A stretch of DNA of 64,000 nt from Artemia franciscana. Lineage: Eukaryota > Arthropoda > Branchiopoda > Anostraca > Artemiidae. Under the pieces are notes generated by a model. The model was not told where the DNA came from. It saw only the letters and a list, made by a program, of their open reading frames with translations, and did no database searches. This document shows positions 15,593-59,740 of this stretch, in pieces (the first letter of the stretch is position 1; every line of letters starts with the position of its first letter). The position numbers and the translations under genes are program-made. The stretch spans positions 22,124,994-22,188,993 of the forward strand of contig NC_088864.1 in assembly GCF_032884065.1 (NCBI RefSeq), in the 5' to 3' direction.

Positions 15593-15626
<34 letters not shown>

Positions 15627-18138: not shown

Positions 18139-18304
18139 CTTCAAGGTTAAACCGTGCTGAAACCAATCTTTTTCCAACCGGAGTTTTAAGAGTCAGAATA
18201 AGAGGGGAAATCCATTCACAAGACAAATATATTTCATAGATTTTTTTTTCTCCTATTGATTATTTTTACTTTACAAAAGAAACAGTCTACCTAATACTTT
18301 GGTA

Positions 18305-21220: not shown

Positions 21221-21293
21221 AAGATTTGAACCTAAGACTAGAGATTTCCCCAATGACCGGGCAAGTGTCTTAAGCATCTGTACCAGCAAACCA
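21221..21293 (-). repeat. tRNA-derived SINE-like head
   Basis: Read on the minus strand this starts GGTTTGCTGGTACAGATGC and ends TAGGTTCAAATCTTA. It has a good match to the pol III B box (GGTTCAAATC) about 50 bases after an A-box-like TGGTACAGATGCTTAAG. There is no intact cloverleaf, so I read it as a degenerate tRNA-derived SINE head rather than a functional tRNA gene. Confidence 0.4.
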
Positions 21294-21477
21294 TTCATAA
21301 TCTTTTGATTTGGGAAATAATTCGTACGTTATCACCTTTTAAACGCAAGGAGAATCTCATGTCCTGCTTACGAGAACGATTAAATTGTTCACATGTTTCC
21401 AACCCTTTCCACATAACAGCGCAAGCATCCCAATGCTATTGATTTTTGCTCTAATGCATGTACCTGCCTATTACAGT

Positions 21478-23500: not shown

Positions 23501-23509
23501 CAGCCAGGT

Positions 23510-25225: not shown

Positions 25226-27182
25226 ATCTAATAAAGAAAAAATCATGAGCATTGGAATGCTTGCGCTCTCATGTGGAGAGGGTTGGGAACTCGCGAACAA
25301 TTTAATCGTTCTAGTAAGCGGCCAATGGATCCTCCTTGTGTTCAAATGGTTATCATATAGAAAGTATTACCCAAATCAAAATTTATCAATAGTTTACTGG
25401 TCCAGATGTTTAAGGCTCTTGTTCGGTCATTGGGGAGATCTCTGGTTTTACACTCGAATCGTAAAGCGGACAAAAATTTTTAAATTATAAAGGTTTCCAG
25501 AGAAAAATGTCTTGAAAGAAAACGAAATCTCAAAACAAACGTCAAGAACGAAAATGCAATCTCTTAAAGTGTTATGTACACCCTTTTTCACCCCTCAGTT
25601 ACAACCAGGATTTTTCGGCTTGACTAGCAGACTCTAAAAACTCCTTATACGTAACAACAAAAAGTAAACAAAAGGTATTACGCAGCAGACATTACGCTAG
25701 CCCTTCCCTCTAGTGCAATTAGATCCCAGAGGCTCCCATTAGAATTGCTTGCGAAGGGTCCCGTTGGAATCGACTGCTATGACCCCCTTGGAGCTGGTTG
25801 CTAGGCCCCCCGTTAGAATTGCTCGACCCATGGACTACCCATGAAATTGACTGCTAGGGTCCCAACAGTGGAAGAGGTCGTTAGGTTACATTAGTGGTAC
25901 TTCACCGACCGCATGAAAAAGGTTGGTAGGAAACCCGGTGGAAAAGACTGCAAGAGGCCCCGGTAAAACTGGATGCTTGGCCCCCCAGTGAAATTGGATG
26001 CTAGGGGCCCTGGTAGTTAGGTTTGGTTAGGGGGCCCGGTGAATTTGGTTGCTAGTGCTCCGTTGGAATTGCTCGCTAGGGTCAAGTGTCTTGAAGGCTC
26101 CCCTCTGGTGGGCCCTGAAGGTTTAGTCCTGGTCCTCATAGGTTTTTAAACATAACGACTAAAACAAAATATTCAGTGGGGTCCTGAAGGTTTTTCCTTG
26201 CGATCGTGAAATTTTAAGAAAAAATACTCTCTATTAGGTACCAAGCAAAAGCTATTGTGTAACAACCAAAGAAATCCTGATTTGACGGGTTCCTAAAGGT
26301 TTTTCCCTACACTCTTTGGTCTTAAAGTACTTAACACTTTCTTAAGTACTTAACACGTGCATTTTTTAGAAAATATTCCCTATTCTGTAATTAACACCTT
26401 TGTCTCATAGAAAACATCCCCTATTAAATAACATGCACCTGCTTCATGCCCTGAGGGGGTCGTCGTTAAATCTTTTTGTCATCTTACGTCATTAAAGGAA
26501 GGAAAGAGAAGTGATTTTAGGTCCTTCTAAAACTATGGAGGGGATTCTATAGTTATATTCTTAATATCTGCTAACTACGCTCTGTTCATAAACGTTTTTG
26601 CTAAAATAAATAATAATAAATAAATAAAACAGCAATGTTAAATACTCTGTTACTTTCAAACTATGTTAAAAAGTTTAGTGTAGTATTGTTTTCAGTGTTC
26701 TCTCCCTTTAATTTTGTAGGGGGTATTTCATAATTCAAACTTTGATTTGTAAAAGGTTGTGGACCGCTTTCTTACAATAATATTAAATAGAGCCCCGTCT
26801 AGTGGTCATATCACTTAGGAAGGCTCAACTGTCGAAAGTATTTTTCCGTCACATCGCAAAATTGTGTATCTTTCTAACTCAGAAATGCTCCTTGGTTCAG
26901 CCTAACCTTCCTATCAAACTAGGTTAGCTCTACTATGCTGCACTAATAAATTAACAATTTTACTGTTAATGCACTGTCCTTGAAATAAATGAACAAGCAA
27001 AGTCCAAACATTATCCCAGTAGGAATAGCCTATGGAAACAGCCTTCAGTTCCAAAATAATTAATCCAAAAAAGGTAATCTTTAATAACTTTGGGCAAAGT
27101 CATTGAAGTGTGATGTATTATAGTGATTTAATTAGTTCATTGTGTTCTTTCAACAGACGTAGTAATTAAGTCCTTTTTGTAG
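25226..27182. other. Non-coding stretch containing a G/C-rich minisatellite
   Basis: No gene recognised. 25725-26085 is a minisatellite. 26100-26310 has three loose copies of a CCTGAAGGTTTTTCC motif. The frame at 25245-25490 has no recognisable domain. Confidence 0.4.
25725..26085. repeat. Degenerate G/C-rich minisatellite (about 30-36-bp units)
   Basis: Repeated phrase of the type CCCGGTGAAATTGGATGCTAGGGG, seen for example at about 25740, 25800, 25960, 25990, 26035 and 26060. Its base composition is unlike the AT-rich surroundings. Confidence 0.65.
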
Positions 27183-31232: not shown

Positions 31233-31299
31233 GATTCTTCTTCCTCAATGCATTTGAGCGCTAAAAAGTTGGACTACGAAAGTCTTTCTAATATTTTGA

Positions 31300-32109
31300 T
31301 TAGGCCAATACATTCTAAATGATAACTTATTTCACGCACGAGGGAATCCCCTGCCCGCCTTATAAAACCGTTAAATTGATCGCATGTTTCAGAACTATCA
31401 TCACCTAGCCGCGTAACTATCCAGCAAAGCTATTGATTTTTGGTCTATTCAACACATCCGCATGCGAAACTACATTAGTGCTCTAGCGTGACATAGATAG
31501 GTTAAGTTACAAAGAAGATGTTACATAGCTCCAGCCTTAGATATATCATTACGTAAACGATTACGTATTGGAGTCTTATCCTAAAACAAGAAATCTAAAG
31601 GACATAAACTTTTGTACATACAAATTTTATTAATAAAACAAATTTATAAAGCATTATTAAAACACAGAAAAAGCAGTTAAACTCAACAACGGAAAAAACA
31701 AAACCTGAAAAAACCTGACGTAGGGTAAAATATAAGAAAAAGAACCATGAATTAAAGAAAGGTGAGAGCCCTAGCAACCAATTCCAGAAGGGAAGATTGA
31801 TATTAGAGGTTAATTTCAACTTATTAGAGGTTATTGGAGAGTTAATTTAAACAAAGAGCTATTTGTGAGAGCTTTTAATGAGAATGCCACATTTTGAGCC
31901 AAGACAACGCATATTCACGCCACCGTGCCAATATATGGCTGACCCACCCTAGAAAGCATTTCTAGAGGGGCGCTTGTTGTTAGCGGTAAATTTAAGCAAT
32001 ATTAAGAGGTATTTCTGAGATATTCAAATGAAAATCCCTCATTTCTTTTTACTCAATCCCCCACTTCCAAAAAATTCTTTTAACACCACCCACCTTAACC
32101 TTAAGCTGT
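31300..32109. mobile_element. One end of a long-TIR element related to 21478-23500
   Basis: AAATTTTATTAATAAAACAAATTTATAA, GCATTATTAAAACA, GAATTAAAGAAAGGTG and CATATTCACGCCACCGTGCC follow the same order as 21505-21930 of the other element. The homology extends left of that element's arm (CTATTGATTTTTGGTCT at about 31430 against about 21437). No opposite inverted arm is found in the window; instead it runs into a tandem satellite. Confidence 0.75.
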
Positions 32110-33392
32110 AGAACATGTTAGTCCAAGCAACTCACGCAACCATGGCAATGTATGGCTAGTCCATGACACTTCTGTGATGCATATTATCATTCCCAAGACA
32201 TTTTTACCAGAAATTGTCATGCTAAAAATCATGCATTAACTCCATCGGTTCATGTTTTTGCAAACCGCCACCAACGTGATGCATCATCTGAATTCACAAC
32301 ACCATGTCGCATTATTACTGACCTTTTGGCACCCTCTGACACCCTCTCATTATTCCTGAGATATTTTACAAATGTTTCCTTGTTAAAAATTATGTAGAAA
32401 ATCCAATGGTTCATGTTTTCATAAGCCAACCCTATGTGACACACCAGCTCAAATCACACCACCCTGCTGTACTGTTACTGAACCTCTGGCACCCTCTAAC
32501 ATCCCCTCATCATTCCTAAGAGATTTTCCCGGATATTTTCTTGATAAAATATAATTTTAATCAATTGGTTCATGTTTCCACCAAAAAACCTCCGGGATAC
32601 ACTATGTCATTTCACACCACCCTATCACATTATGAATGGCCCTCTGGCACCCCCTCGTCATCGCGAAGACACTTTATAGATATTTTGTTGATAAAAATAT
32701 GATTTCAGTCCATTATATCATGTTTCCACAACCCAATCCTCCTTGATACACCATGTCGTCTCAAGCCACCGTGCCAAACAATGACTGGCCCTCTGGTACC
32801 CTTTCATCATTCCTAAGATATTTTCATATATTTTTTTGTTAAAAATCATGCGTTAAATTCATTGGTTTATGTTTTGGCAACCCAACCCTCCGTGATTCAC
32901 CATGTTGATTCACACCACCATGTCACACTATGACTGGACTTCTAGCACCCCTTCATAATTCCTAAGAAAATTTCCAGATGTTTTCTTGTTAAACATTATG
33001 CTTAAAGTCCATTGATTCATGTTTCGCAAGCCAACCGTCTGTGATACACCTTGTCAATTCACACCACATTTCCACACTATCAGTGCCTCTCTGGCAGCCT
33101 CTAGCACCTCGTGTCATTCTTAAGACACTGTCAGATGTTTCTTGCTAAAAATCAAGCATTAAATCCGTTGGTTCGTGTTTTTGCAAGCCAATCCTCTGTG
33201 GTACACCATGTCATCTCACGCCACCGTGACACACTATGACTGACCCTCTGGGACCCTCTATAACCCCTAATCATTCATATTGAATCATGTTTTTGCAAAC
33301 AAGACCTCCGTGATACACCATATCAATTCACACCAACGTGTCACACTATCATTGCCCTTCGGGAGACCTCTAGCATCCCTTATCTAACTGAT
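32110..33392. repeat. Satellite-like tandem repeat, 150-160-bp unit, about eight copies
   Basis: The phrase TCATGTTT(T)GCAA.CCAACC recurs at 32250, 32411, 32570, 32718, 32868, 33017, 33173 and 33285 (spacing 112-161). Each is followed by CACCATGTC..TTCACACCACC, CACTATGACTGGCCCTCTGG, CATTCCTAAGA and TTTCTTGTTAAAAAT. Copies are diverged by substitutions and indels. Non-coding: frames are interrupted in every copy. Confidence 0.9.
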
Positions 33393-33455
33393 AACCTTTA
33401 GCATTTCCTTACCAAATTCATAGAGAGATGAGCCGGATTATTCCAAAATTGGCAC

Positions 33456-33478
33456 ACACATACATACATACAAACACG

Positions 33479-33523
<45 letters not shown>

Positions 33524-33573
33524 AGACACACGCAACCACACAAATTCGGACACACATGCATACACACACACTG
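33456..33573. repeat. (CA)n microsatellite
   Basis: Uninterrupted ACACAC from about 33480 to 33518, with impure flanks. The 71-codon Cys/Val-rich frame on the opposite strand is a by-product. Confidence 0.95.
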
Positions 33574-35806: not shown

Positions 35807-36480
35807 CTAACAACTCACCGCAGCAACAAATCCCCTGAAGTCAACACAGCTACGAACATTCCTTCTCCGGCCCAATCTGTTCAAAGCTTCCTTCTTTACA
35901 CCCTCCCAGTAGGCTCTCATTTCCTTTAAATATTTCTTTATAATATCCTCCCAACACGAAGGCAGACGACCAGCTTTCCATTTAATTCTGAACGGTTGGT
36001 CGAAAAGGAAACTCTTCAGCAATCTATCATGCTTCATCTGCAGAGCATGCCTTAGTCATTTCAAGCCTTCTCTCATGACAGTCCTAGAAAGTGTGATTGA
36101 ACCACATTTTTCTTAGAGCCGACTGTTTGAAATACGGTCAGTCTGGTGGGTACCATAGGCAATTTCTCAGGAAAACATCTAGCAAAACTTCAGACGCTTT
36201 TCGGAGTGCTCATGCTTTAGTACCATAATTGACTAATGTCATCACAGTAGTCTCCGAAATCCTAGTCTTGGTTTGCTGATTTATCTTCTTATTCTTCCAA
36301 TTTTTTGAGAAAACACCCTGAGCTTTGGCTATTCTACTATTAACATCTTCACTGCTCCCACCGTCTTTACTAATAATTCTACCGAGGTATGTGAGCAGTA
36401 TCACTTCAATTGCTCCGAGCACGACTTTATCCCTTCGAATCCCAGTACTAGCACTTTTTTAAAACCATACAGTATGGATT
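35807..36480 (-). pseudogene. Non-LTR retrotransposon (LINE) remnant, C-terminal part of the reverse-transcriptase ORF
   Basis: On the minus strand, two open pieces separated by frameshifts and stops spell the region after the RT core. First comes YLGRIISKDGGSSEDVNSRI..KAQGVFSKNWKNKKI..KTRI and LVNYGTKA. Further downstream is DRLLKSFLFDQP, then GRLPSCWEDIIKKYLKEM, YWEGVKKEALNRLG and VRSCVDFRGF. This order is characteristic of LINE ORF2 C-termini. 59440-59740 carries the same family. The left arm of the large inverted repeat overlaps its upstream end. It is inactive. Confidence 0.85.
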
Positions 36481-36622
36481 TTCTCCCAGTGCTTCCATTT
36501 ACTTAATTGAAGTCACAGATGTCGATATTTTAAACTATAGCTATAAACGGCAACATGTTTTCTTTTCCAACGATACGTTTTTTAGCTTCTAAACAGTCTT
36601 TCCATTGGATTTATGAAATTTA

Positions 36623-36707
36623 TGTCTGGTGTAAGAATCGAACGTGAGACCCAAGATTTGTTTGGTAGAAAAACGACGCATTAGTTATTTGAGCCAACAA
36701 GTCACTG
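36623..36707 (-). repeat. tRNA-derived SINE-like head inside the left arm
   Basis: On the minus strand GGCTCAAATAACTAATGCG resembles an A box and CACGTTCGATTCTTACACC a B box, about 45 bases apart. The homologous segment in the right arm (46105-46186) preserves the same two blocks. Confidence 0.4.
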
Positions 36708-36965
36708 ATACTATTAGATTCTTAGAAACACATTCTAGGCAAACGTTATCAATATTTTTTTCTGGGCACTAGAGAACTGGTGCTAAAAATCCTTGTAATG
36801 TGCCAAGTTAATTGCGTCATCGATTTTTCATTTCGAGTTGAATTTTTTGTAAACACTATTTGTGATTTGCTTTCGGGTGCCTTTGCGGCATCATTCGTAT
36901 ATGCATACCACGGTGACTTGAAAAACTTGCTAGAAAGACTTATTCTTTTGATGGACAGCCCTTGA

Positions 36966-37075
36966 GTACACTCTCTAAACCTAATATCTCTGATCAACAT
37001 TTCCCAAATTCCTATGATGTGTACACTCTCTAAACCTAATATCTATGATCAACATTTCCCAAATTCCTATGATGT
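36966..37075. repeat. 55-bp tandem duplication, nearly perfect
   Basis: 36966-37020 and 37021-37075 differ by a single base (ATCTCTG against ATCTATG). It is far less diverged than the surrounding arm, so it is recent. Confidence 0.95.
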
Positions 37076-37275
37076 AAATATTCTAACAATCCTACGACAC
37101 ACCTATCCTACCATTCCTACAACCCACATACCCAACCATTCCTGCCATACGCACATCCCACCATTTCTAACACACACATACCCTAACATTCCAAAGACAC
37201 ATATATTCCATCCTTCCTATGACAAAAATTTCCCAATATTCCTATAATACACACATCCCACCATTCAGACCATAC
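37040..37275 (+). repeat. Minisatellite of about 26 bp in the left arm
   Basis: Units of the type CACATCCCACCATTCCTA with CAC/TAC steps. The same unit occurs reverse-complemented at 45648-45840 in the right arm. Confidence 0.85.
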
Positions 37276-38117
37276 AAACGGGGGCTGTACTTGAGCCAAA
37301 TAAAACTACCAGTCCCTCTTACCTGATCATTTATATGAGAATGTTCAATAGAATTGAGTCTTCAAAATAATATTTTAATTCGTTGGAAAATTACCAAAAC
37401 AAAACAATTTGATCTTTCGTTAAGTTGATGTAAACCACAGAGTTAATAAAAACAGCTTTAGTATCTATATCAGCAATGACTACCTCTCACTCTGGCTCCA
37501 GCCCCAGCTCAATCTTGATTAGACCCAGTGTTACCATGGACTCTTCTAATTGTAATCTTCTTCTATCTAATTGCAAGAAGCTCCTCAAGGGTAAGAACTA
37601 CTTCTCTTTTCATTTTCATTCCTGGAACATAGAATATGCTCATGTAATTAAATTAAGAACCTCTCACTCCACATACTTCGAATAATAAAGTTTACTGACC
37701 CCCGAGGCAATTATTTAAGAAAATCTATTATTATTGTCACTTTCAATGTCCACACATGTGAGAAAGAAAATTCTATGCTTCAAATAGGTAACTTTATTTG
37801 TTTTTCTGTTTTTTTTATTACGCATTTTTTTATTTCGTTTTTTGCTAATGGTAATTGTATCAAATCATTAGTCCAGGAAATTTAGGAGGGTCTACTTCGA
37901 CTTGAAACAGCGAGTTCCACTTGGACTTAAAAAATTTATCAAAAGCAGCTAGGTTCCCATCACCATTCTTACACCCCTTCTACATATTGCAGAAAAACAT
38001 GGCGTCAATGTCATTATAGTTTTTTATTTGTTTTCGTTTGTTTGTGTTAAAAACGCTTGTTTTTTCTTTTTTTCTGCTAATGGTAATCATAACCAAACAA
38101 TGATCCTGGAATTTTGA

Positions 38118-39398
38118 GACAGAAAAAAAGACACAAAGATACACATACAGACATTCAAAAAGACACATTGTCACACAGAAAAAAGACGGATGGTCATATA
38201 GACACACAGAAAAAGACAGCCAGACACGCATACAGATGGCCATAAGGACAAATGGACAGACAGAGGAAAACACAAAGACACATGGACAGACATAGAAAAA
38301 GACTCACAGATACGCATGCAGACAAACAAAAGGACATAAAGGCAGAAGGACAAAAAGACATACAGACGGAAAAAAACATAGACACAGACGGATGGATAAA
38401 CAAACTCACATGGACAGACAGAAAAAAACAAATAGACACATAAACAGACATATAAAAAGACACACAGACAGAAAAAGACACATAAACACACAGACAAACA
38501 TACAAAAAGACGTATAGACACACAGACAAGCGTAAAAAAGACACAGGCAGAGAAAAAAGAGACACACAGACACGTAGGCAGACTAACAAAAAAGACAAAC
38601 AGTAGACATACTGAAAACGGACAAAAGACACGCAGACATGGAGACATACAGAAAAAAACGCATAGATACACAGATAGACAAAAACACAAATAGACACACA
38701 GACAGACAGACACACAAAAGTATAAGCCGACATACGGACAAAAAGACACATAGTGACACAAAAAGACATACAGGCACACAGACAGACCAAAAAAAAAACA
38801 AAGACAGATGAAAAAACATAGACACATAGTCAGACAGATAGAAAGACAGACGGAATAAAGACACACAGACACAGCACAAAAAAAATTGACAGGCAAAAAT
38901 AAGGCACAGAGACACATAAGAAGGTGGACAAAAAGACACACAAAAAGACAAATAGACAGGCAGGTAAATAGAAACATAGACACGCATACAAAAAGACACG
39001 CAGATACATGGACAAACTGGAATAAGACACATAAGCACGCAGACAGACAAATAAATACATAGACAGATATACGAAGAACACACAAAGGCACATGGGTACA
39101 TAGACATACACGCATAAATATACAAAAACAGAAACACAGACACACCAACAGACATACAGACAAAAAACACAGACCGACATGAAAAGACGCATAAACACAC
39201 AGAAAGACTGAAAAAAGACACTTAGACTCAAAGAAAGATGGACAAAAAGACACAAAGACAGACGGAAGAAGATACATACACATATAAACAAACGGAAAAA
39301 ACAAACACATAGACAGACACACAAATATAAACATAGACAGATTGATAAGAAGACACATTGACATGCAACAAAAGGACACATAGACACACAAACAGACA
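38118..39398 (+). repeat. CAGACA-type minisatellite array, A/C-rich on the plus strand
   Basis: Degenerate units of about 22-32 bp of the type AAAAAGACACATAGACACAC plus AGACAGACGG. There is almost no T on the plus strand, so the minus strand rarely shows a stop. The minus-strand frame 38171-39391 (406 codons, Cys/Val/Phe/Leu/Ser-rich) and its overlapping partners in the other frames arise from this. I do not regard them as genes. Confidence 0.9.
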
Positions 39399-39399
39399 T

Positions 39400-39890
39400 G
39401 TGTGTGTGTGAATATGACTGTTCTTCTATCCGTTTGTCTACGTTTCTTTTTGTCTATTTGTGTATAGTTTTATGAACCTTTTTTGTCTTTTTATGTGTCT
39501 TTTTATACAGCTATCTGTGTGTCTGTGAATCTTTTTTGTCTGTCTGCGTATCGTGCATCTTTTTTTGCGTCTCTTTGTGTGTCTTTTTATTCCCTCTGTC
39601 TGTGTGTCTGTGTGTCTGTGTCTCTGTCGCCGCGTCTTTTTGTCCGTCTTTCTGTGTCCTGATCTGTCTTTATGTCCACCTGCCCATGCCTTTATGCATC
39701 TTTTTGTCCATCTTCTGCATATCTATGTGTTATTTTCTGAGGTTTTGTGGATTTTTCTGTTTGCCAATGAGCGTGTCTGTGTGCCCATGTGTCTAGGTGT
39801 CTTTTTCTGTCTGCCTCTGTGTCAGTGTGTCTTTTTTGTACATCTGTCTGTGTATATGTGTGTCTGTTTATGTGTCTATGCTTCGTATTT
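39400..39890 (-). repeat. CAGACA-type array in inverted orientation (T/G-rich on plus)
   Basis: From about 39400 the plus strand switches to TGTCTGTGTGTCTTTTTGTC units, the complement of the preceding array. The boundary is a GTGTGTGTG run. Confidence 0.9.
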
Positions 39891-39892
39891 CG

Positions 39893-41375
39893 GACACACT
39901 GACAAAAAGCACAGACGGCCAGAAAAAAGACACAGACACCCGACAAACGAACAAAAGGATGCACAGACAGACGGAAAAATGAAACATAGAAACACATATA
40001 GACGGTCATAAGCAAAATCGGACAGACGGACAAAAAGACTCAAATAAACCAAGACAGAATCACAAACACATAGTCAGAGAGAAAAAATACACATAGACAC
40101 ACGGACAGACAAAAAAACATAGACACAGATAAAGACATACAAGCACACCGACCGACCGATACAAACCCACAGACAGATGGAAAAACACAGACACACAGAC
40201 AGGCAGATGGACAAAAAACAAACAAACAGAAACGCACATATACACAAAAAAGACAAATCAACACACAGACATGCAGAAAAAAAACACATAGAAGAAATTA
40301 AAGATGGACTAAAAGACACAGAGACAGACAAAGAAAAATACACATAGATATGCATAGAAAAAGACACACAGACGGACATAAAAAAAATACACAGACAGGA
40401 GCATAGATACATAGACAGACACAGAAAAGCCAGACGGGTACAAAAATACACAGGCATTCAGACACAAAAATAGACACAAATCCAAACAGACACACCAACA
40501 CACACACAGACAAGAAAAACAAAGACATAAAAAAGACACATGAACACACAGAAAGACTGAAAAAGAGCCACATAGACACACAGACATATGGAAAAAAGAC
40601 ACAAAGACTGACGAATAAAAGACACATATACACACGGACAGACGGATAAAATACACACAAAGACACCCAGACCAAAAAACGACACATCGGTAGACGGAAG
40701 AACATTGACACACAAAAGGACACACATAAACACAGCCGTACCAAAAAACACTCAGACACACACACAAAAGACAACATAAGCACACATACCGACAAAACAC
40801 ACACTGACAAACAGACAGATGGACAAAAAGACACACAGACAGACATAAACAAAAGGACATATAGACCCGCCGAAGACCAATACATTAAAAGATACAAACA
40901 AGGAAGAAAAAACCCATAATACACAGAAAGACAGCCGGACATAAAGACTCTCAGACATACACACAAAAAGCCACATAAGCACACAGACAGACAAAACAAG
41001 ACAAACGGACAAACAGACAGACGGACAAAAAGACAAATAGATAGACACACAAAGAGACAAATAGACAGACGGAAAAAAAGACACACAAACGGACACACAC
41101 ACGCATAGTCAGAGAGAAAAAAAGACAAATAAGACAAATAGAAACAAAATAGAAAAATAGAAAAAAAAATAAAATAGAAAACAAATAGTAAAAAAGACAC
41201 ATAGAAACAAAGACGGAAAAAAAGACACATAGACTTATAAAATGACATACAGGCAGATAGACAGACCGAACGGGACGGGACACACAGACAGACAGAAAAA
41301 CATAGAAACACAGACAAACATACAAAAAGACACAGAGACACACTGACAGACAGACTGACAAATAGACATACAGAA
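39893..41375 (+). repeat. CAGACA-type array, A/C-rich again
   Basis: Orientation reverts at about 39890 (GGACACACTGACAAAAAG). Units are the same degenerate 22-32-bp type. An A-rich patch at 41110-41200 is more AAATAG-like. Long minus-strand frames (for example 40298-41410, 370 codons) are repeat artefacts. Confidence 0.9.
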
Positions 41376-41376
41376 A

Positions 41377-41415
41377 TGCTCAACGTCTTGAGCATTGCCC
41401 GTTTGGGCAATGCTC
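41377..41415. repeat. Compound hairpin at the array/LINE junction
   Basis: TGCTCAA-CGTC-TTGAGCA is followed by GAGCATTGCCC-GTTT-GGGCAATGCTC (11-bp perfect stem, 4-base loop). The two hairpins share the TTGAGCA block, so alternative pairings are possible. Confidence 0.85.
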
Positions 41416-42965
41416 AAACAAGCATCAGTATCAGTTTGGCTTTTGCACAAAGTTTTCTACAGAACATGCTTGTAATAGACTTCTTCAGTTTATACCACGA
41501 TCTTTAAATTTTAATCTTATTCTTGCAGCCATTTTTCTTGATTTAAAGAAAGCTTTTGACAGCCTAACACACAAGATCCTCATTGGTAAACTTTCTCATC
41601 TTGGTGTGCGTGGGGAAGCATTGTCTTGCTTCTCGTCATACCTAACTGACAGATCTATCGCCACGGAAGTTCCAGACAAAAAAGTTCCAATTAAATACGG
41701 AGTACTCCAAGGCTCTATTCTTAGGCCAAGCCTCTTCCTCATCCATGTGAATGATCTCTACCGACTTTTTAACACCCCAATTAACAATGTTTGCTGTGGG
41801 TTGTGTCACAAATCTTACTCTCAGACTACGTTGGTGTTCACATCTGATAGTCAAGAAGAATATATAGCATTTTTCAGATGACACTACTTTAGGTGCTGCA
41901 CCTCTGAATGAATTTTCCCCTATTCTAAAGCTTCAAGCAATGACTAAGAAGATACTCTTTTGGTTTGACATAAATCAACTAACTTTAAATGTAAAAAAGT
42001 CATACCTTCTTATTTTTTCTCGTAAAGGTGTGAGCTGTCCCACAATTACTGAGCTTCATACACCAAAAGGTTCCATAAGTCGTCCGCCGGATCGATATTT
42101 GCAATTCCTGGGAGCTCTTTTGGATTAAAATCTATCGTGTAAGAGGCATGTTCAAATAATAAGAGTGAAAATTTCCTGTGGACTTGGGATCATCCGAAAA
42201 TTAAAGCGTTTATTTCCTTCCCCTATCCTCCGTATTTTATACTTCTCTCTCATTTACCCTTATATATGTTACTGTTCGTCTGTGTGAATGTCCACATTTC
42301 CGTTGGTACTTGCTCCTATTCACCATCTTCATGAGAAAACAGTTAGAATTCTCTAGTCGGCTACACACACTCCTCTTGACCTCCTTAAGATTAAAGATAT
42401 TTATGTTTTATCTCTATCTTCGTTGGCATACCAATACTTCTAGGGAGATCTCCCATTTTGTTTTTTGGGACTGCTCAAACTAGTAGGGGAAGTAAATATG
42501 TCTATGGTTCGTAACTGAGAGGATGTGATGATTCCAACTAGTCCCTCGGTTCGTTCAGACTTTGGCCTGGCTGCAACTGCGGGGCGTGCTTGGAACTTGG
42601 TTCCAGCTGAGATCAGGCAGTCACGCAAACTTGGCTCCTTTAAGAGACAGATGAAAAGTTTCTTATTAAAGGTTTCTTATGAATTTTTTTGAGCTGTTGT
42701 TTTGTTGGTGTTGTATCCTCGTTGACGCAGATAATTTTGAATTGTATTTTATTGTCGGGTGATGTGAGGATCACTGGTTCGTGGGGACTGTCGGTGAGTT
42801 GATTTCTTTTCCTTATAGATTTATATTTAGATGTTGGTTAGTATGTGTATGACAAGTTTTATCATTCTTTATTTATTGTATGCTGTTTCCCAAATAACGT
42901 GCCATTGAGACCTTTGGGATATTGTTTTTGTTATTTTATGAAAATAAATAGAACTTGGACTTGAA
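41410..42965 (+). pseudogene. Non-LTR retrotransposon remnant with reverse-transcriptase domain
   Basis: RT blocks in order: QYQFGF and STEHA near 41426-41470; IFLDLKKAFDSLTHKIL at about 41530; GVLQGSILRPSLFLIHVNDL (PQG changed to LQG) at about 41700; then a frameshift before FSDDTTLGAAPL at about 41870 (the usual F/Y-A-D-D box); WFDINQLTLNVKKSYLLIFS; and RYLQFLGALLD followed by a stop. A C-terminal LFNS-like block, GRAWNLVPAEIRQSRKLGSF, is at about 42580-42640. The 3' tail runs to about 42965, where the minisatellite resumes. Frameshifts and stops make it inactive. Confidence 0.85.
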
Positions 42966-43760
42966 GCTTGAAAAATACACAAAAAGAAATATAAATACAC
43001 AGACAGACAGAAAAAACACATAGACACACAGACCGACGAACAAAAAAGACACATAGACAAACATACAAAAAGACACATAGACAGACGGACAAAAAGACAC
43101 ATGAACACGCATACAAAAAAACACACAGACAGACACAAAAAAACATCTAGACACACAAACAGACAGAAAAAGACACGTAGACATGCAGAAACATGGGTAC
43201 ACAGACCTGGAAGCATACAGACACAAGAACAAGCACACAGACACACCGACAAACACACATACACACACACACATACATTTCAAAAAAGAAAAACATACAC
43301 ACACCGACAGATGAAGAAAAACACACAGAGACTAACAGAAAAAGATGCATAGACACACGGACAGACGGACAAAAAAGACAAACAAACAGACAGAGTATAA
43401 AAAGACTAAAAAACACACAGAAAGGCAGAAAAAACACATGCCCAAACACACAAATGGTCAAAGAGACACATAGATACTTGAAAGACGTCGAGCCTGCCCA
43501 CTGATGAATTAAAGGGCCCAACCTTCGTTGAATGTATTCCTTAAAAATTAGACAAAATACTAAAAGAAACACAGACAGGCACAAAAACACGTGGTCAGGG
43601 AGAAAAAAGACATGACAAACAGACAGACAGAAAAAAGACACATAGACACTTAAACGAAAGAAAAATATATTGACACACAGACAGACGAATATATTAAAAG
43701 ATACACACAGAGAAGGATAAAAAGACCCATAGACACACAGAAAGACAACCAGACATAAGT
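42966..43760 (+). repeat. CAGACA-type array, A/C-rich, right of the LINE
   Basis: Same unit type. Around 43080-43130 the period AAAAAGACACATAGACAGAC + GGAC (24 bp) is clear. It is interrupted at 43486-43565 by about 80 bp of unrelated sequence. Confidence 0.9.
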
Positions 43761-43764
43761 ACCA

Positions 43765-45195
43765 CCTGCTTCTATGTGTCTTCATGTGTGTCTGTCCGTC
43801 TGCTTGTATGTTAATGTGTCTTTTCTCAGTCTTTCTGTTATGTCTTTTTTATATCTTTCTCTGTCTCTATATATATTCTTGTCCGTTTGTCTGTGTATGT
43901 GTCTGTCTATGTGTCTTTTTGTGGGTCTATATTTCTTCCGTCTGTCTGTAGGTCGTTTATCGGGCTGGGTGTGTTCGTGTGTTTTTTTTGTATTGCTATC
44001 TGTGTGTTTGTGTATCTTTTTCTATTTGCCCGTATGTTTTTGTGTCTGTCTGTGTGAGTTTTGGTTGTCTATACATATGTATTTGTGTCTTTTTTCTCTA
44101 ACTGTATGTTTATGTGTCTGTCTTTGTGTCTTTTTGTTCCTCTTTCAATGTGGTTATGTGTCTTTTTGTCCATATGCTTATGCGTCTATGTGTTTTTCTT
44201 CTGTCTGTCTGTGTGTCTGTCTGTCTGCCTTTGTGTCAAGACGTCTTTTTTCTATCGGTCACTGTGTCACTGTATCTTATTGTATATCTGCCTATGTGTC
44301 TATGTGTATTCTTTTCAATCTGTCTGTGTTTCTTTGTTTGTCTTTTTACAATACCTGTCGGTGTGTCTGTTTGTCTTTATTTTGTGTTAATTTTTGTATG
44401 TCTGTCTCTGTGCCTATGTGTCATTTTCTTTGTCAGTCTGTGTGTCTGCGTGTCTTTTTGTCGGTGTGTCCGTGTGTCTATTTGTCTTTCTTTTGTCTGT
44501 TTTTTTGTTCATCTGTCTTTGTTTCAATATTTGTTTTTTCAGTCTGTCTGTGTATCTATGTGTCATTTTTCTCTCTGTTTTTTTTTTTTTCTATGTGTCG
44601 GTTGGTGTCTCTGGGTACCTTTATGTTTTGTTATGGGTCTCTATGATTGTGTACCGTAAGTCTGTGTGTTCATGTGTTTGTTTTCTGTCTTTATTTGTGT
44701 TTATATGTATTTTATATGTCTGTCTGTGTATCTATGTGTCTGTATCCGTATCTATGTGTCTTTTTTCGGTCTGTCCGTATGTCTATGTGTTTTCTTTCTC
44801 TGTGTGTTTGTATTATATGTTTATGTGTCAGTTGTTGTGTCTGTTTGCCTGTGTGCCTATTTTGTATCTCTATGGTTGTGTGTATGCATACCCTTCTGTT
44901 TTGTGTCTTTTTATCCATCTCTCTGTGTGTCTATACGTCTCTTTTCAGTTTTTCGGTGTGTCTGTGTGCAGTTTTTTCTGTCTGTCTTCATTTTTTTTTG
45001 TCTATGTGTCTGTTAGTTTGTCTGTGTACCTGTGTGTCTGTATTTTGTGTCTCTTTGCTTTTGTGTCTGTATACCCGTGTGTCTATGCGTCTTTTTGCTG
45101 TCTTTCTGTATGTCTTTTTTGTGGGATTTTTGTGAATCTATGTGTCTGTTTGTGTGTCTATATATCTTTTTTCTGTCTGTCTGTGCGTCCGTTAT
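43765..45195 (-). repeat. CAGACA-type array in inverted orientation (T/G-rich on plus)
   Basis: Orientation flips at about 43762. TGTCTGTCTGTGTGTCTATG-type units continue to the right arm. Plus-strand open frames here (up to 290 codons) have the same Cys/Val/Leu/Phe/Ser composition as the minus-strand ones on the left, as expected of complementary repeats. Confidence 0.9.
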
Positions 45196-45283
45196 TCATT
45201 GAGATTTTTATTGTCCTTGTAAATGCAAGCAAGGTGTTCCAATGAAAACATGTGGAGCGAGGGGCTCTTAAATTCAATGACTT

Positions 45284-45499
45284 ATGCAAATTCTATGTTC
45301 AGTGTATAGAATGATGGGAGAAGGCGTTAGTACCCTTACGGAGCTTTTTGCAATTAGAAGATGGTTGAAAGAGTCCTTGGTAGCACTGGTTCCAATGAAG
45401 CTTGAGCCGGGGCTCGACCATGAGGTAGCCTTCGTTGATATTGATACTGAAATTGTTTTTGTTAAGTCGGTGGTTTACATCGACTTAAAGAAAGATTAA
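45284..45499 (+). other. Short open frame in the right arm, unassigned
   Basis: 71 codons including TELFAIRRWLKESLVALVPM and EIVFVKSVVYIDLKK. The homologous stretch in the left arm (minus strand, about 37440-37680) keeps recognisable pieces (LLAIR, VVYI-like) but has stops, so it could be a relic of an element ORF. I do not recognise the family. Confidence 0.25.
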
Positions 45500-45647
45500 T
45501 TTGTTTGTTTTTTTTGTAGTTTTTCACCAAATTAAAATATTATTTTTAAAATTATATATCTATTGAACATTCTGATCTTAATGATCAGGTGTAAGGAATT
45601 GGTAATTTCATTTGGCTTTAGGATACCCCCATGTGGGTGACCGGAAT

Positions 45648-45840
45648 AGTGGGATATGAGTATCGTGGGAATGGTTGGATAGGTGTGTCGTATGAATGGT
45701 GGGGTGTTTGTCGTAGAAATGGTGGGACATGTATATCGTAGGAATGGTGGGGTATGTGTGTCGTAGAAATGGTAGGAATTTTCTGCTGTAAGAATGTTGG
45801 GATCTGTGTATCATAGGAATGTGGGATATGTATCTCATAG
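45648..45840 (-). repeat. Minisatellite of about 26 bp in the right arm
   Basis: GGAATGGTGGGGTATGTGTG-type units, complement of the left-arm minisatellite. Confidence 0.85.
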
Positions 45841-46104
45841 ATTCCAGGCACTTAGCGTTACCTTAAGGAGTGTCCATTAAAAGAATTTATCTGTCTAGCT
45901 GGCATCTGAAATTACTGATGTATGTATATTCTTGGAATGATGCAAAAAAAGGCATCTGAAAATAGAAAACTGATAACATTTGATTACGTAATTAACTTGG
46001 AACGATACAATGATGCGTAACACCAGTTGGCTAGTGCCTAGAAAAAATGGATTGATAAAATTTGCGTAGAATGTATTTCTAAGAATCTAATAATATTAAT
46101 AACC

Positions 46105-46186
46105 TGTGGGCTTACGTGACTAGCCCTTCGTTCTTTTACCATAAGAAATCTTTGGTATCACGTTCAATTCCTACACCAGACATAAA
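46105..46186 (+). repeat. tRNA-derived SINE-like head inside the right arm
   Basis: GTGGGCTTACGTGACTAGCC (A-box-like) and TATCACGTTCAATTCCTACA (B-box-like), homologous to 36623-36707 on the opposite strand. Confidence 0.4.
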
Positions 46187-46425
46187 TTTCATAAATTCAA
46201 TGGAAAAACCGCTTCGAAGCTAATAAACGTGTCGTTGGAAAAGAAAATATGTTGCTATCAATAATAGTTGAAAATGTCACCATCTATGACTGCCATTAGG
46301 TAGGCTGCACTGGGGAATCTCCATTCTGTGCGGTCTAAAAAAGTGCCAGTACCGGGATTCCAAGGTATAGTTAGTACTCGGAGTCATTGAAGTGCTACTA
46401 CTCAAGTCGAGTGAATTTATCCACC

Positions 46426-49639: not shown

Positions 49640-52111
49640 GAGGCGTGGGGCTTACACCGACCCTTCAATACATTTTTCTTCAAGAGGGACAAAGGAAAGT
49701 TACTATTTAACAAAAATACTACTCGGTTAATTCCAAAAAATCACAAAATATTATTAAAACACTAATTAAACAATGCACATACATCAAACAAACATACAAT
49801 TAAGTCGATAGTCCTGCTTTTACGCCCGTTCGGTAATGGAGGCTCAGCGGCAGATTCTCAGCGCCCGGCATAGATGGCGCGTATCTAATTTTGTACACTT
49901 ACTTTACTCTGTCAAACTTGAAACAAAACTAGCGCTATCGTAATTTTTGCCGCATCAATGTTAATCTGAGATAACGCTATAGCGTTGGTGGTCTCATAAC
50001 TTCATGTGGTGGTGTTATAATCATCGAAGGGGGCTCATGTGATTGGAAATCAGAAGTTCTATTCCCGTTTTTAAGATTCAAAAGTAACCAGAGGGCAACT
50101 AGCCCCCATGTCCTCTTTGCCCAAATGTATCAGAACAAAATTTTGATACAGCCATTCTTTTAAAAAAGTTTCCCGGGTTGAAAAAAAACACACAGCCCAA
50201 GGGCAAGGGTTGTAAGTTATGCAAGTTCTCCATTGTTAATCTATAAGGTTTTTAGAAAAGCGGTGGTCGCATAAATTTCTGAGGAAGTTCATTCAATTTG
50301 AAACCAAAAGTTCTAGTTCCCTTTTTAAGAGTCAAAAGGGATCCGAAGGCACCCAGCCCCCCCCTTCCCGTTGGAGATAGCCATTTTATTCAAAATAGTG
50401 TGAAGGTCATATAATAATACTTCTAGGTTTGAAGACCCCCCCAGCCCCCAGTACAAGGGCTATATGTTCTGCTAGTTGCTCATTGTTAGTATATATGGTT
50501 TTTATGGAAGGGATGTTCGTTCAAACTTCAAGGGGGCTTCTTTGACCGGAAATCAGAAGTTTTAGTGCCCTTTTTAAGAGTCAAAAGTGATCTTGGAGTG
50601 CAACTTCAAAGCAGAAAGAAATTCCTATAATAATTCAAATTCAAAACGATCAGAAATTACTTCTAAAGAATAAATGAAACTCACGACGAACAGAAATTAA
50701 ATAAACAATCATAGCAACCAAATACACAACAGGTACTAACAAAAATGAGTAGATAAATCTTAAAACGAGTAAAACTTGAATTGAATATTCAAATCAAAGA
50801 TAAAACGAACAAAAATCACTACAAACAAGAGGTCAGTAACTTCCCCCTTTTTTCTCCCCTAATTATAAAAGACTAAGGCCTGCTGCGTCATTTGAGCTTT
50901 ACTAAAAACTAATGTATTACAAATATTTTCTTTTGTACTTTAAACTTCAGCGATAAATAAAGTACAGTTTAAACTGTAATTTATTTTCTTTTGTCACATT
51001 AAAAATGTGAGAACAGTGAAAAAATCTTGAATTGCTGACCTTTCAGCGATTTATATCATTATATATTAAATATTAATTAAAATTTTTATTTCTTTCCAAG
51101 GACTGTTTTAAGAGACATAATTTAATTAATTCTTTGCTTTGCCAAATATCAATGAAAAATTGCAATTAAAGAGTATTTTGCACAATTTTTATTTTGAGAC
51201 TAGAATTGCTAGCCGATTGCGCACGCACAAATGGTGCAATAGACTTTACGCTTTTACAATTAGAAGAGGGAGAAGGGGGCAGCAAAACTCTTGCTTGTAG
51301 TGATTTTTCTTCATTTTAAGTTTGATTTGAATATTTGATTTAAGTTTTACTCACTCTAAGATTTATATATTTATTTATATTAGTGCCTATTGCATATTTT
51401 CTTGCTGTGATTGTTCATTTAATTCCTGATCACTTTGGATTTCTAGAAATTTCTGGTCGTTTAGAGTTTGAATTATTATAGAAATTCATTTCTGCTTATC
51501 TTAAGTTCAACGTGGTTCTTTACTATTGTTTTACGAACTTTTTTTTCGGACTGTTGTTCTTAATTAATTCAAAAAAAAATTAATTTAAAATGTATATCAT
51601 AAGTTCTAATTTCATGTTTCGACAAAAAAAATTAACCTGGCAATAGGATAGAACGACAGAAATGGCGGTTTCATTTATTACTACTATAATTAATGATGAT
51701 CTTGATAAAAAGCTTAAGGATAGCTGGTATATTTTCGGAATTAATTAAGGTGTTTGACACTGATGATCATCGAATATTATTAAAAAAAATGTGAAATTTA
51801 TGGATTAAGGGGTGCTACATTGGGTTTGCTTTGCAGTTATCTTCAAAATAGAGAGCAGTATGTCAATTTACAAGGATTTTTGTCTAGTAAAAATGTTGTT
51901 AATTGGGGTTCCTCGAGGATCCGTACTGGGTTTGACTCTGTTTTTAATTTTTGTTAATGATCAGCCGCATGTTGGGATAGCTCTGACCAGAATTGACGAC
52001 TTTGTTGACAACGGTCCGAGTAAGACCCAGGTTACTATGCCATTATTTGCTGATGATACAACCTTGGTGTGTGTTGCCTCTACGGAACAACTGCTCATAT
52101 CAACGATAAAT
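49640..52111 (+). repeat. 2.5-kb tandem duplication, unit 1
   Basis: Begins AGGCGTGGGGCTTACACCGA and ends TCAACGATAAATG. Base-by-base similar to unit 2 at an offset of about 2.53 kb, apart from small indels in homopolymers and scattered substitutions. It contains a triple non-coding module (50030-50600), AT-rich sequence and a truncated RT remnant. Confidence 0.9.
50030..50600. repeat. Three tandem copies of a shared roughly 240-bp module
   Basis: GGAAATCAGAAGTTCTA...CCTTTTTAAGA.TCAAAAG.. followed by a C-rich run and ATAGCCATT occurs at about 50050, 50310 and 50550. The same word order (AAAAGTTCTAGTGCCCTTTTTAAG, C-rich tract, GATCAAAATTTTGAGATAGCC) forms part of the hairpin-rich elements (for example 15690-15810). 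Unit 2 has the matching block at about 52555-53125. Confidence 0.65.
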
Positions 52112-52135
52112 GTAAAAAATTTTTAGTAAATAGTA
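51640..52135 (+). pseudogene. Reverse-transcriptase remnant in duplication unit 1
   Basis: Contains VPRGSVLGLTLFLIFVNDQP and, at about 52040, [13 protein letters not shown], the F-A-D-D catalytic box of non-LTR reverse transcriptases. Upstream KAFD-like and YLQNREQYV pieces are out of frame. It stops soon after the FADD box where homology to unit 2 ends, followed by short AGTAAAAATTTTTGTCT repeats. Confidence 0.8.
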
Positions 52136-52167
52136 AAAATTTTTGTCTAGTAAAAATTTTTGTCTAG

Positions 52168-54649
52168 GAGGCGTGGGGCTTATTCCGACCCTTCAATACA
52201 TTTTTCTTCAAGAGGGACAAAGAAAAGTTACTATTTAACAAAAATACTACTCGGTTAATTCCAAAAAATCATAAAATATTATTAAAACACTAATTAAACA
52301 ATGCACATACATCAAACAAACATACAATTAAGTCAATAGTCCTGCTTTTGCGCCCGTTCGGTAATGGAGGCTCAGCGGCAAATTCTCAGCGCCCGGCATA
52401 GATGTCGCGTATCTAATTTTGTACACTTACTTTACTCTGTCAAACTTGAAAAAAAAAACTAGCGCTATCGTAATTTTTGCCGCATCAATGTTAATCTGAG
52501 ATAACGCTATAGCGTTGGTGGTCTCATAACTTAATGTGATGGTGTTATAATCATCGGAGGGGGCTCATGTGATTGGAAATCAGAAGTTCTATTACCGTTT
52601 TTAAGATTCAAAAGTAACCAGAGGGTAACTAGCCCCCATGTCCTCTTTGCCCAAATGTATCAGTTACAAAATTTTGATACAGCCATTCTTTTAAAAAAGT
52701 TTCCCAGGTTGAAAAAAAAAACACACAGCCCAAGGGCAAGGGTTGTAAGTTATGCAAGTTTTTCATTGTTAATCTATAAGGTTCTTAGAAAAGCGGTGGT
52801 CGCATAAATTTCTGAGGAAGTTCATTCAATTTGAAACCGAAAGTTCTAGTTCCCTTTTTAAGAGTCAAAAGGGATCCGAAGGCACCCAGCCCCCCCTTCC
52901 CGTTCGAGATAGCCATTTTTCAAATAATAATACTTCCAGGTTTGAAGACCCCCCCCCAGCCCCCAGTGCAAGGGCTATATGTTCTGCTAGTTGCTCATTG
53001 TTAGCATATATGGTTTTTACGGAAGGGATGTTCGTTCAAACTTCGAGAGGGCTTCTTTGACCGGAAATCAGAAGTTTTAGTGCCCTTTTTAAGAGTCAAA
53101 AGTGATCTTGGAGTGCAACTTCAAAGCAGAAAGAAATTCCTATAATAATTCAAATTCAAAACGATCAGAAATTACTTCTAAAGAATAAATGAAACTCACG
53201 ACGAACAGAAATTAAATAAACAATCATAGCAACCAAATACACAACAGGTACTAACAAAAATGAGTAGATAAATCTTAAAACGAGTAAAACTTGAATTGAA
53301 TATACAAATCAAAGATAAAACGAACAAAAATCACTACAAATAAGAGGTCGGTAACTTCCCCCTTTCCTCTCCCCTAACTATAAAAGACTAAGGCCTGCTG
53401 CGTCATTTGAGCTTTACTAAAAACGAATGTATTACAAATATTTTCTTTTGTACTTTAAACTTCAGCGATAAATAAAGTACAGTTTAAACTGTACTTTATT
53501 TTCTTTTGTCACATTAAAAATGTGAGAACAGTGAAAAAAATCTTGAATTGCTGACCTTTCAGCGATTTATATTATTATATATTAAATATTAATTAAAAAA
53601 TTTTATTTCTTTCCAAGGACTGTTTTAAGAGACATAATTTAATTAATTCTTTGCTTTGCCAAATATCAATAAAAAAATTGCAATTAAAGAGTATTTTGCA
53701 CAATTTTTATTTTGAGACTAGAATTGCTAACCGATGCGCACGTGCAAATGATGCAGTAGACTTTACACTTTTACAATTAGGAGAGGGAGAAGGGGGAGCA
53801 AAACTCTTGCTTGTAGTGATTTTTCTTCATTTTAAGTTTGATTTGAATGTTTAATTTAAGTTTTACTCACTCTAAGATTTATCTATTTATTTATATTAGT
53901 ATTTTATTATATTTATATTATTCATATTATTGTATATTTTCTTGTGTGATTGTTCATTTAATTTCTGATCACTTTGGATTTCCAGAAATTTCTGGTCGTT
54001 TTGAGTTTGAATTATTATAGAAATTCATTTCTGCTGATCTTAAGTTCAACGTGGTTCTTTGCTATTGTTTTACGAACTTTTTTTCGGACTTTTATTCTTA
54101 ATTAATTAAAAAAAATTAATTTAAAATGTATATCACAAGTTCTAATTTTATGTTTTGACAAAAAAATTAACCTGGCAATTGGATAGAACGATAGAAATGG
54201 CGATTTCATTTATTACTACTATAATTAATGATACTATTGATAAAAAGCTTAGGGTAGCTGATATACTTTCGGAATTAGTTAAGGCGTTTGATACTGTTGA
54301 CCATCGAATACTATTAAAAAAAAAATGTTAATTTTATGGATTAAGGGGTGCTACACTGGGTTTGCTTTGCAGTTATCTTCAAAATAGAGAGCAGTATGTC
54401 AATTTAAAAGGATTTTGTCTAGTAAAAATGTTGTTAATTGGGGGGTTCCTCAAGGATCCGTACTGGGTCCGACTCTGTTTTTAATTTTTATTAATGATCT
54501 GCCGCATGTTGTGAAAGCTCTGCCCAGAATTGACGACTTTGTTGACAACGGTCCGAGGAAGACCCGGGTTACTATGCCCTTATTTGCTGATGATACAACC
54601 TTGGTGTGTGTTGCCTTTACGGAACAACTGCTCATGTCAACGATAAATG
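52168..54649 (+). repeat. 2.5-kb tandem duplication, unit 2
   Basis: AGGCGTGGGGCTTATTCCGA through TCAACGATAAATG. Unlike unit 1, it runs straight on into the remainder of the LINE coding region, so unit 2 looks like the parental arrangement. Confidence 0.9.
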
Positions 54650-59439: not shown

Positions 59440-59740
59440 CGCTTTTAAGGGCCATAATGAGCAAAGGTTGAGATGGCTGGGACACGATCTGCAGATGATA
59501 GACTGCCCAAGATCATCCTTGTCGGACAACCGTCTAAGGCCAAGCAACAAGTAGGTCACCCCATAATGGGGAGGGAGGATTTTGTAAGGAAAGGTTTAAG
59601 GGAAATGGGAACTGCTTGGGAGGGAGGCTTTGAATATGGGATTGAAACGGAGCGTGTGTAGCCGTGTTGGCCTCAGGCCCCTTGGAACTCCAGTGAGTTG
59701 TTAGCAGTGATAAGGAATCTATCCGAGTCATGAATCAAAC
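59440..59740 (+). pseudogene. LINE remnant, ORF2 C-terminus (same family as 35807-36480)
   Basis: RWLGHDLQM is in one frame, then after a shift DDRLPKIILVGQPSKAKQQV, MGREDFVRKGLREMGTAWEG, and after another change RVGLRPLGTPVSC. These align residue by residue with the minus-strand remnant at 35807. It is only the last 90 or so codons, 5'-truncated as is usual for LINEs. Confidence 0.8.

Follow-up and report, generated by a model that had tools for sequence, protein, structure and literature searches.

The inverted pairing at 36392–46404 in the 64-kb stretch of Artemia franciscana DNA analyzed here (the window) is real, its two arms are homologous and old, and the mirror symmetry is confined to these arms. 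Our leading, though tentative, reading derives both arms from a dispersed composite repeat, present here as two old copies in opposite orientation around a microsatellite that was later joined by a LINE fragment.

Results

Homology and age of the inverted arms

Over its whole length, the left arm aligns with the right arm in reverse complement at 78.3% ungapped identity (BLAST E = 9e-153), and the local score of 445 compares with a maximum of 18 among 60 shuffles. Of the 1293 alignment columns, 896 are identical and 148 contain gaps (K2P 0.259), and identity in bins of 100 columns stays between 0.73 and 0.83, i.e., the arms are collinear and have diverged evenly. This is in agreement with the initial annotation, which had described arms of about 1.2–1.3 kb matched inversely over their full length; its term "large old palindrome" is fair for the two arms, which differ at about 22% of ungapped sites. 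The arms are 7.6 kb apart, two inverted collinear copies with a spacer, as in an inverted duplication; at 1.16 and 1.28 kb, they also resemble the long inverted terminal arms of foldback and long terminal inverted repeat (long-TIR) elements. The arms and their parts are as follows:

36392–37674, + strand: left arm, 1283 bp, by end-to-end alignment with the reverse complement of 45250–46404
45250–46404, − strand: right arm (1155 bp), a copy of the left arm in inverse orientation
36594–36753, − strand: left-arm block in which tRNA-like motifs were read by eye (outward-facing; borders from profile match)
46048–46212, + strand: right-arm counterpart of this block (arm alignment and profile match; no Rfam match)
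36966–37075, + strand: 55-bp unit in tandem duplicate (98%), left arm only
37078–37266, + strand: 25-bp minisatellite of the left arm, 7.6 copies (Tandem Repeats Finder)
45643–45831, − strand: 25-bp minisatellite of the right arm, 7.7 copies (Tandem Repeats Finder)

A third copy of the arm was not found within the 64-kb window. Pattern scans of viral and prokaryotic collections with five arm words and two array words returned no relatives; these scans are weak, since the array words are consensus-like and have no exact occurrence in the window, and since one arm word of the prokaryotic scans matches the right arm only. In a protein search of the viral collection a pattern matched in 15 stretches, none of which was confirmed.

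Composition of the arms

The arms are made up of LINE-like, tRNA-like and minisatellite parts, none of which is firmly classified. Tandem repeats within the arms, a feature of foldback and long-TIR elements, are present as the minisatellite in both arms, as the initial annotation had noted, with a period of 25 bp according to Tandem Repeats Finder and not of 26 bp. The same annotation had called a further block SINE-like. Box motifs resembling those of a tRNA are visible in it by eye; however, ARAGORN reported no tRNA in the arms and Rfam searches up to E = 5 returned no tRNA match on either arm, though a similar block occurs in a second inverted pair. A tRNA, visible by eye and matched by neither program, was set aside, and a tRNA-like SINE head is at most putative. 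The Rfam search of the left arm gave two unrelated matches (E = 0.68 and 1.1).

Arm edges and flanks

Three features adjoin or cross the arm borders:

35810–36458, − strand: LINE-like coding remnant with open frames 36213–36458 and 35810–36055, crossing the left outer edge at 36392
37675–38115, + strand: non-homologous stretch from left arm to array, containing a sequence of about 95 bp in two direct copies (75%)
45190–45249, no strand assigned: non-homologous stretch from array to right arm, 60 bp

The remnant, which we take to be that of a LINE, gave no Pfam match above the cut-off, and its 35810–36055 part has a diverged relative at 59408–59704. An 82-codon frame crosses the left edge; on the right side, homology ends at 46404. 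In the section of the frame that lies within the arm, differences between the two copies fall on 2 of 22 first, 3 of 22 second and 7 of 22 third codon positions, and the right arm retains two short pieces of the frame (E = 0.40 each). Eleven distinct frames were covered by the Pfam scan, and one, belonging to the LINE fragment within the array, exceeded its cut-off.

The joins between arms and array lack homology, with an inner score of 7.0 against a null mean of 9.3, and the outer flanks are unrelated to each other (score 8.0, null mean 9.4). No exact direct repeat of at least 8 bp that could represent a target-site duplication was present at the outer edges, a weak test inasmuch as an exact 8-mer is often lost at this divergence. 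Beyond the edges, at distances of about 11 and 25 bp, there is a 7-mer match; 19% of random stretch pairs have a 7-mer in common. Inspection by eye revealed no target-site duplication around either single arm.

The array between the arms

A decayed array of the GACA/CACA type fills 5.5 kb (sum of blocks) between the arms, and is the sole GACA-type array found in the window. It is a degenerate microsatellite with a period of 4/8 rather than a clean minisatellite. Its five blocks change strand three times (+, −, +, −) and are broken by a LINE fragment:

38116–39400, + strand: array block A, A-rich strand +
39401–39885, − strand: array block B, flipped
39891–41378, + strand: array block C
41379–42975, + strand: LINE fragment interrupting the array, with reverse-transcriptase similarity (approximate borders)
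42976–43770, + strand: array block D
43775–45190, − strand: array block E, flipped, adjoining the right arm

Block A contains AGAC or GGAC at a density of 71.6 per kb, and frame 41366–41881 of the LINE fragment matches RVT_1 (Pfam, E = 3.5e-10).

Next to the left arm the array is A-rich, next to the right arm T-rich. The suggestion that the arrays continue the mirror symmetry is accordingly correct for the polarity of the arm-adjoining blocks, an arrangement that would arise by chance in about one in two cases for unrelated arrays; beyond this it was not confirmed, as the array flips three times and left and right arrays have no common register above the Markov null. The best inverted array–array score (160) falls inside the range of 10 Markov simulations (122–216), and the best direct score is 201 versus 132–202 in the simulations. 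In block-shuffle tests of the 10 block pairs, A versus E gave z = −0.6, and the highest values, C–D (3.0) and C–E (2.6), are modest and belong to pairs other than the one predicted by the mirror model. Mirror-duplicated arrays were accordingly rejected for want of evidence.

A fold-back origin of the strand flips was likewise rejected, as local palindromy at the three flips does not exceed that of randomly paired array pieces (over 20 tests, the lowest fraction of such pairs to reach the score was 0.12). RNA folding at the two +/− junctions is strong relative to dinucleotide shuffles (z = −7.8 and −6.9) but uninformative, because any A-rich block next to its T-rich complement folds in this way. 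Neither a mirrored array register nor palindromic flip junctions, the further marks of an inverted duplication, were thus found. Array turnover could erase a mirror register, and duplication of the arms only is compatible with these data.

A second inverted pair in the window

With the array interior left out, the window holds 28 direct matches and 20 inverted ones with a length of 150 bp or more, two of the latter being the present arm pair. A second long inverted pair at 21034–25680 likewise surrounds a tandem core and has arms of similar length. Its arm also occurs as an unpaired partial copy covering most of the arm (31256–32046, 77% ungapped identity), and long inverted arms in this window can therefore consist of dispersed repeats.

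The arms of both pairs probably have in common the block with tRNA-like motifs, which lies in the same orientation about 200 bp from the outer end (offsets of about 217–346 and 195–323). Searched with a profile of the block from the 36392–46404 arms, the window yields the second pair's arms as the next matches (E = 5e-4 and 0.12); the reverse profile, in turn, recovers the 36392–46404 arms (E = 0.004 and 0.008), versus best chance matches of E = 3.1 and 1.2 on the reversed window, for a block that had been delimited after the alignment had been seen. With full-arm profiles the block reaches only E = 0.0097, compared with 0.078 for the best reversed-window match. Two of eight arm-to-arm tests between the pairs scored at or above all 60 shuffles (22 and 21); with 1000 shuffles these scores were reached 0 and 11 times, and those of the other-arm comparisons 709 and 465 times. 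The top score of 158 ordinary window pieces against the arms was likewise 22. The two pairs have dissimilar outer ends. Under random insertion an outward-facing block in both long pairs is expected in about 1 in 16 cases.

Discussion

Origin of the inverted pair

In the reading that we favor, a repeat of about 1.2–1.3 kb, presumably mobile and composed of the outward-facing tRNA-like block and the 25-bp minisatellite, would have inserted twice and separately, the copies ending 7.6 kb apart in opposite orientation on either side of the GACA/CACA-type microsatellite. Insertion would probably have been carried out by the machinery of a LINE, as suggested by the tRNA-like block in the arm. The array would have grown and flipped strand by itself, and the LINE fragment may have landed in it later. 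Dispersed repeats are favored because inverted pairs are common in the window and the arm of the second pair is also found unpaired; the same observations do not bear out the earlier preference for a single structure over two chance insertions. Unrelated arm–array joins and outer flanks are as expected from separate insertions, and the block that the two pairs probably share, similar in position and orientation, also counts for this reading. On the other side stand the lack of a third copy of the 36392–37674 arm in 64 kb, the passage of the LINE-like frame across the left outer border, unusual where an element should end, the outward-facing block in both pairs, and the lack of a single-arm target-site duplication by eye. 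No present function is proposed, and the locus is most likely inert.

A local inverted duplication is a possible but doubtful alternative, in which a fold-back or template-switch copy had its breakpoint in the LINE-like remnant, which extends onward only on the left side, and the array is the spacer. The collinear, evenly diverged arms without a third copy in the window, the position of the only GACA-type array found between them, and the frame that passes the left edge, together with its codon-position pattern and the end of right-side homology at 46404, all speak for it; non-homologous joins and flanks and the missing mirror register in the arrays speak against it, as does the block common to the second pair, which it does not predict. 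The LINE label, moreover, is our presumption, with no Pfam match for the remnant and E = 0.40 for each frame piece in the right arm. Inverted copies with a spacer of mostly a few kb are described for human fold-back inverted duplications, where 3 of 21 sequenced junctions are reported to lie in LINE or SINE repeats (PMC3907307); those events are presented as recent chromosome rearrangements, whereas the pair here is old and small with eroded breakpoints.

Unlikely, in our view, is a foldback-like long-TIR DNA transposon, with the arms as TIRs, the array as variable middle and the 21034–25680 pair as a distant relative. It would account for long inverted arms with internal tandem repeats around a variable middle, and for two such pairs in the window with similar arm lengths and a block common to both in place and orientation; it is at odds with the lack of an exact direct repeat of at least 8 bp between the outer flanks, the frame through the left edge, the unpaired copy of the second pair's arm, the dissimilar outer ends of the pairs, and the lack of a transposase among the 11 frames scanned. 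A giant foldback element, as originally proposed, is for these reasons, and on account of the unshared arm–array joins and the arrays lacking mirror register, not supported; it is retained as a rival owing to the weak target-site test at this age and the shared block. We regard as quite improbable a mobile-element class of long inverted repeats with an outward tRNA-like block set about 200 bp in from the outer end, enclosing growing tandem arrays, of which 36392–46404 and 21034–25680 would be members and in which the GACA-type flips would record repeated fold-back copying. An assembly or library artefact (hairpin read, false palindrome) is hardly credible: such artefacts do create inverted repeats, but they would yield near-identical arms, and the 22% of differing ungapped sites and the 148 gap columns therefore indicate an old pair and no assembly hairpin. 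Two non-autonomous, HINE-like Helentrons placed tail to tail with expanded 5′ microsatellites are very improbable. The order of arm, minisatellite and RGAC-type array and the array strand fit the HINE plan; however, no subterminal inverted repeats or 3′ palindrome were found in five inner stretches and two outer arm ends, with no inverted match of at least 8 bp between them, and the short hairpins at the left arm end, absent at the right, occur also in 51 of 100 shuffles.

Comparison with known systems

The statement that no named element has this layout was too strong. Galileo copies, as described, can consist of two long TIRs with tandem repeats and inserted transposable elements (TEs); copy 112, for instance, is 9021 bp long with TIRs of 4.2–4.7 kb that carry tandem repeats and another TE (PMC4168063). 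The Galileo/Foldback elements of Drosophila thus resemble the present locus in their long inverted arms containing tandem repeats; reports include a 9-kb transposase-less copy that carries an inserted TE, as well as copies whose TIRs measure about 1.25 kb (PMC4168063, PMC3573991). According to these accounts, Galileo has target-site duplications of 7–8 bp, of which none was seen at the Artemia locus, and the 4/8-bp microsatellite here sits between the arms and is not demonstrably part of them. Tetris, a foldback element of Drosophila virilis, similarly has inverted repeats, tandem blocks and a variable middle that apparently does not code for protein, but differs by units of about 220 bp and target-site duplications of 8–10 bp in its description, which lists three structurally complete copies (PMC4079207). 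The Cg_HINE elements of the Pacific oyster, i.e., non-autonomous Helentrons, share central tandem repeats and, in several, a GTCY-type tetranucleotide microsatellite in the left flank; their microsatellites are described as short (PMC7492417), compared with the 5.5 kb of blocks here, and subterminal inverted repeats were not found at our locus.

Implications

The locus has the look of ordinary repeat debris and not of a novel type of mobile element. Instability and hairpin RNA can result from long inverted repeats and inverted arrays, which also show how repeats get copied. Since the pair is old and its symmetry confined to the arms, this locus is chiefly of value in illustrating how a giant palindrome can be imitated by dispersed repeats and microsatellite growth. 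If block-bearing arms were found repeatedly across the genome in inverted pairs around arrays, they would constitute a new transposon group.

Arms and intervening array

The left arm pairs end to end with the reverse complement of the right arm in window self-comparison and local alignment, as the initial annotation had proposed. The alignment spans 1293 columns, 896 identical and 148 with gaps (78.3% identity at ungapped sites, K2P 0.259), identity is 0.73-0.83 in every 100-column bin, and the match is far above chance (E = 9e-153; score 445, where 60 shuffles reached 18 at most). The minisatellite reported in both arms is present in each, with a unit of 25 bp, however, and not 26 bp; a 55-bp unit is duplicated in tandem in the left arm only. 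A full-arm profile search found no third copy in the window. Because more than one fifth of the ungapped arm sites differ, a hairpin read or an assembly artefact is very unlikely to lie behind the arms.

Features of the locus and of the other inverted pairs (window coordinates, strand, description)
21034-25680: second pair, arms about 1.15 kb, some 74% identical
36392-37674 (+): left arm, 7.6 copies of the 25-bp minisatellite
38116-39400 (+): array block A
39401-39885 (-): array block B
39891-41378 (+): array block C
about 41379-42975: LINE fragment within the array, RVT_1 match, E = 3.5e-10
42976-43770 (+): array block D
43775-45190 (-): array block E
45250-46404 (-): right arm, 7.7 copies of the 25-bp minisatellite
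50609-51497: third, shorter inverted pair, within a 2.5-kb tandem duplication

Each array block resembles itself at 4- and 8-base shifts (0.44-0.54 versus 0.34-0.38 by chance), and the array is therefore a degenerate GACA/CACA-type microsatellite in which longer stretches are duplicated locally; the threshold applied revealed no further array of this type in the window. Two short, overlapping inverted repeats were seen by eye at 41377-41417, where the 5' end of the LINE fragment meets the array.

Mirror symmetry is restricted to the arms. The suggestion that the arrays continue it holds for block polarity beside the two arms, the chance of which is about one half, but not for the array sequence: the best inverted score between left and right array (160) does not exceed that of simulated arrays (122-216 in 10 simulations), the A-E block pair is not above block-shuffled controls (z = -0.6), and the three strand flips are not notably palindromic. 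Furthermore, the arm-to-array joins differ: unrelated DNA fills 441 bp between the left arm and the array and 60 bp between the array and the right arm, and the inner joins score 7.0 against each other, below the null mean of 9.3. As the join is not common to both sides, the array is not shown to be part of the repeated unit.

Outer edges

The outer flanks are mutually unrelated (score 8.0 versus a null mean of 9.4), and homology on the right ends at 46404. No exact direct repeat of at least 8 bp links the 51-bp stretches at the two edges, although at this age of the copies the test has little power. One 7-mer is shared, at 36374 and 46430, but it does not abut the edges, and 19% of 2000 random stretch pairs also have a 7-mer in common. 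The left edge at 36392 is crossed by an 82-codon minus-strand frame (36213-36458), which has no Pfam match and by its motif resembles the final part of the reverse-transcriptase region of a LINE; the right arm keeps only two short pieces of it (tblastn, E = 0.40 each). The adjacent frame, 35810-36055, is a dispersed repeat, since a diverged relative of it lies at 59408-59704.

Other repeats in the window

Excluding the array interior, self-comparison of the window gives 28 direct and 20 inverted matches of 150 bp or longer; the present pair accounts for two of the inverted ones. The LINE types and repeats present suggest animal DNA. Tandem units some 250 bp long, derived partly from the inner arm end, make up the core of the second pair, whose right arm contains a 1.7-kb dispersed repeat. 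Profile search located an unpaired copy of most of the second pair's arm, 77% identical at ungapped sites, at 31256-32046. The edges of the second pair are closely flanked on the outside by an 8-bp direct repeat (21019, 25705), a match found in 6% of random stretch pairs.

The dispersed repeat of ~1.7 kb occurs at 4078-5780, 15222-18144 and 23510-25229, in both orientations and 78-86% identical; its terminal ~300 bp match on both strands (palindromic, MITE-like) and recur at 2952, 9448 and 34431. The copies of the 2.5-kb tandem duplication (49640-54649) are 93.5% identical, and each contains reverse-transcriptase remnants as well as a small inverted repeat whose arms measure about 290 bp. A C-rich array (32186-33360, 5 copies of units of about 149 bp) is followed by a CA-rich tract (33453-33571), and a 194-bp unit (1.9 copies at 94%) runs from 63633 to the window end at 64000. 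An open frame of 248 codons at 22-768 has a cysteine-rich tail and lacks any Pfam match; it gives the impression of a transposon-derived protein.

A probable block common to both long pairs

A borderline arm-arm score, when re-examined, led to the tRNA-like block of the present arms: it is there that the arms of the two long pairs align best, in the same orientation and with offsets from the outer end of about 217-346 and 195-323. When the block of the present arms is used as a profile, the second pair's arms are the next matches (E = 5e-4 and 0.12), and the reverse profile recovers the present arms (E = 0.004 and 0.008), versus best matches of E = 3.1 and 1.2 in the reversed window. Several points speak against a shared block: it was delimited only after the alignment had been seen, full-arm profiles reach no better than E = 0.0097 versus 0.078 in the reversed window, ordinary window pieces attain pairwise scores equal to that of the inter-pair alignment, and the pairwise score with the present arms is raised for just one of the second pair's arms.

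Comparison with known elements and origin

The arm-array-arm layout is not unheard of. The initial annotation knew of no named element of this kind, a view overtaken by comparable Galileo and Tetris copies described in PMC4168063, PMC3573991 and PMC4079207. According to these, Galileo copy 112 of D. willistoni measures 9021 bp, lacks a transposase and has two TIRs of 4.2-4.7 kb containing tandem repeats and another TE (PMC4168063); the longest TIRs in D. mojavensis are 1260 and 1241 bp (PMC3573991); and Tetris has TIR repeats of about 220 bp and target-site duplications of 8-10 bp (PMC4079207). Oyster HINEs carry central tandem repeats together with a microsatellite, which in several elements is of GTCY type (PMC7492417); motif and strand agree with the present locus, whereas subterminal inverted repeats are not found here. 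The locus is assigned to none of these families. Pattern scans of viral and prokaryotic collections, and a protein scan of the viral ones, found no relatives of the arms or array, and no sign of a present function was seen.

Our data do not separate the candidate origins well. The arms are inverted, as a palindrome or giant foldback element would have it. A foldback-type transposon is the least probable of three readings. A local inverted duplication arising through fold-back or template-switch synthesis, events of the kind described in PMC3907307, is slightly less improbable; it was the favoured reading until the unpaired copy of the second pair's arm and the probable shared block shifted preference to a dispersed composite repeat in two inverted copies, i.e., the two insertions that the initial annotation had discounted. 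We favour this dispersed-repeat origin tentatively, at somewhat less than even odds. The present arms would then be two old copies in opposite orientations, between which the array would have expanded and flipped strand independently of the arms and received a LINE insertion.
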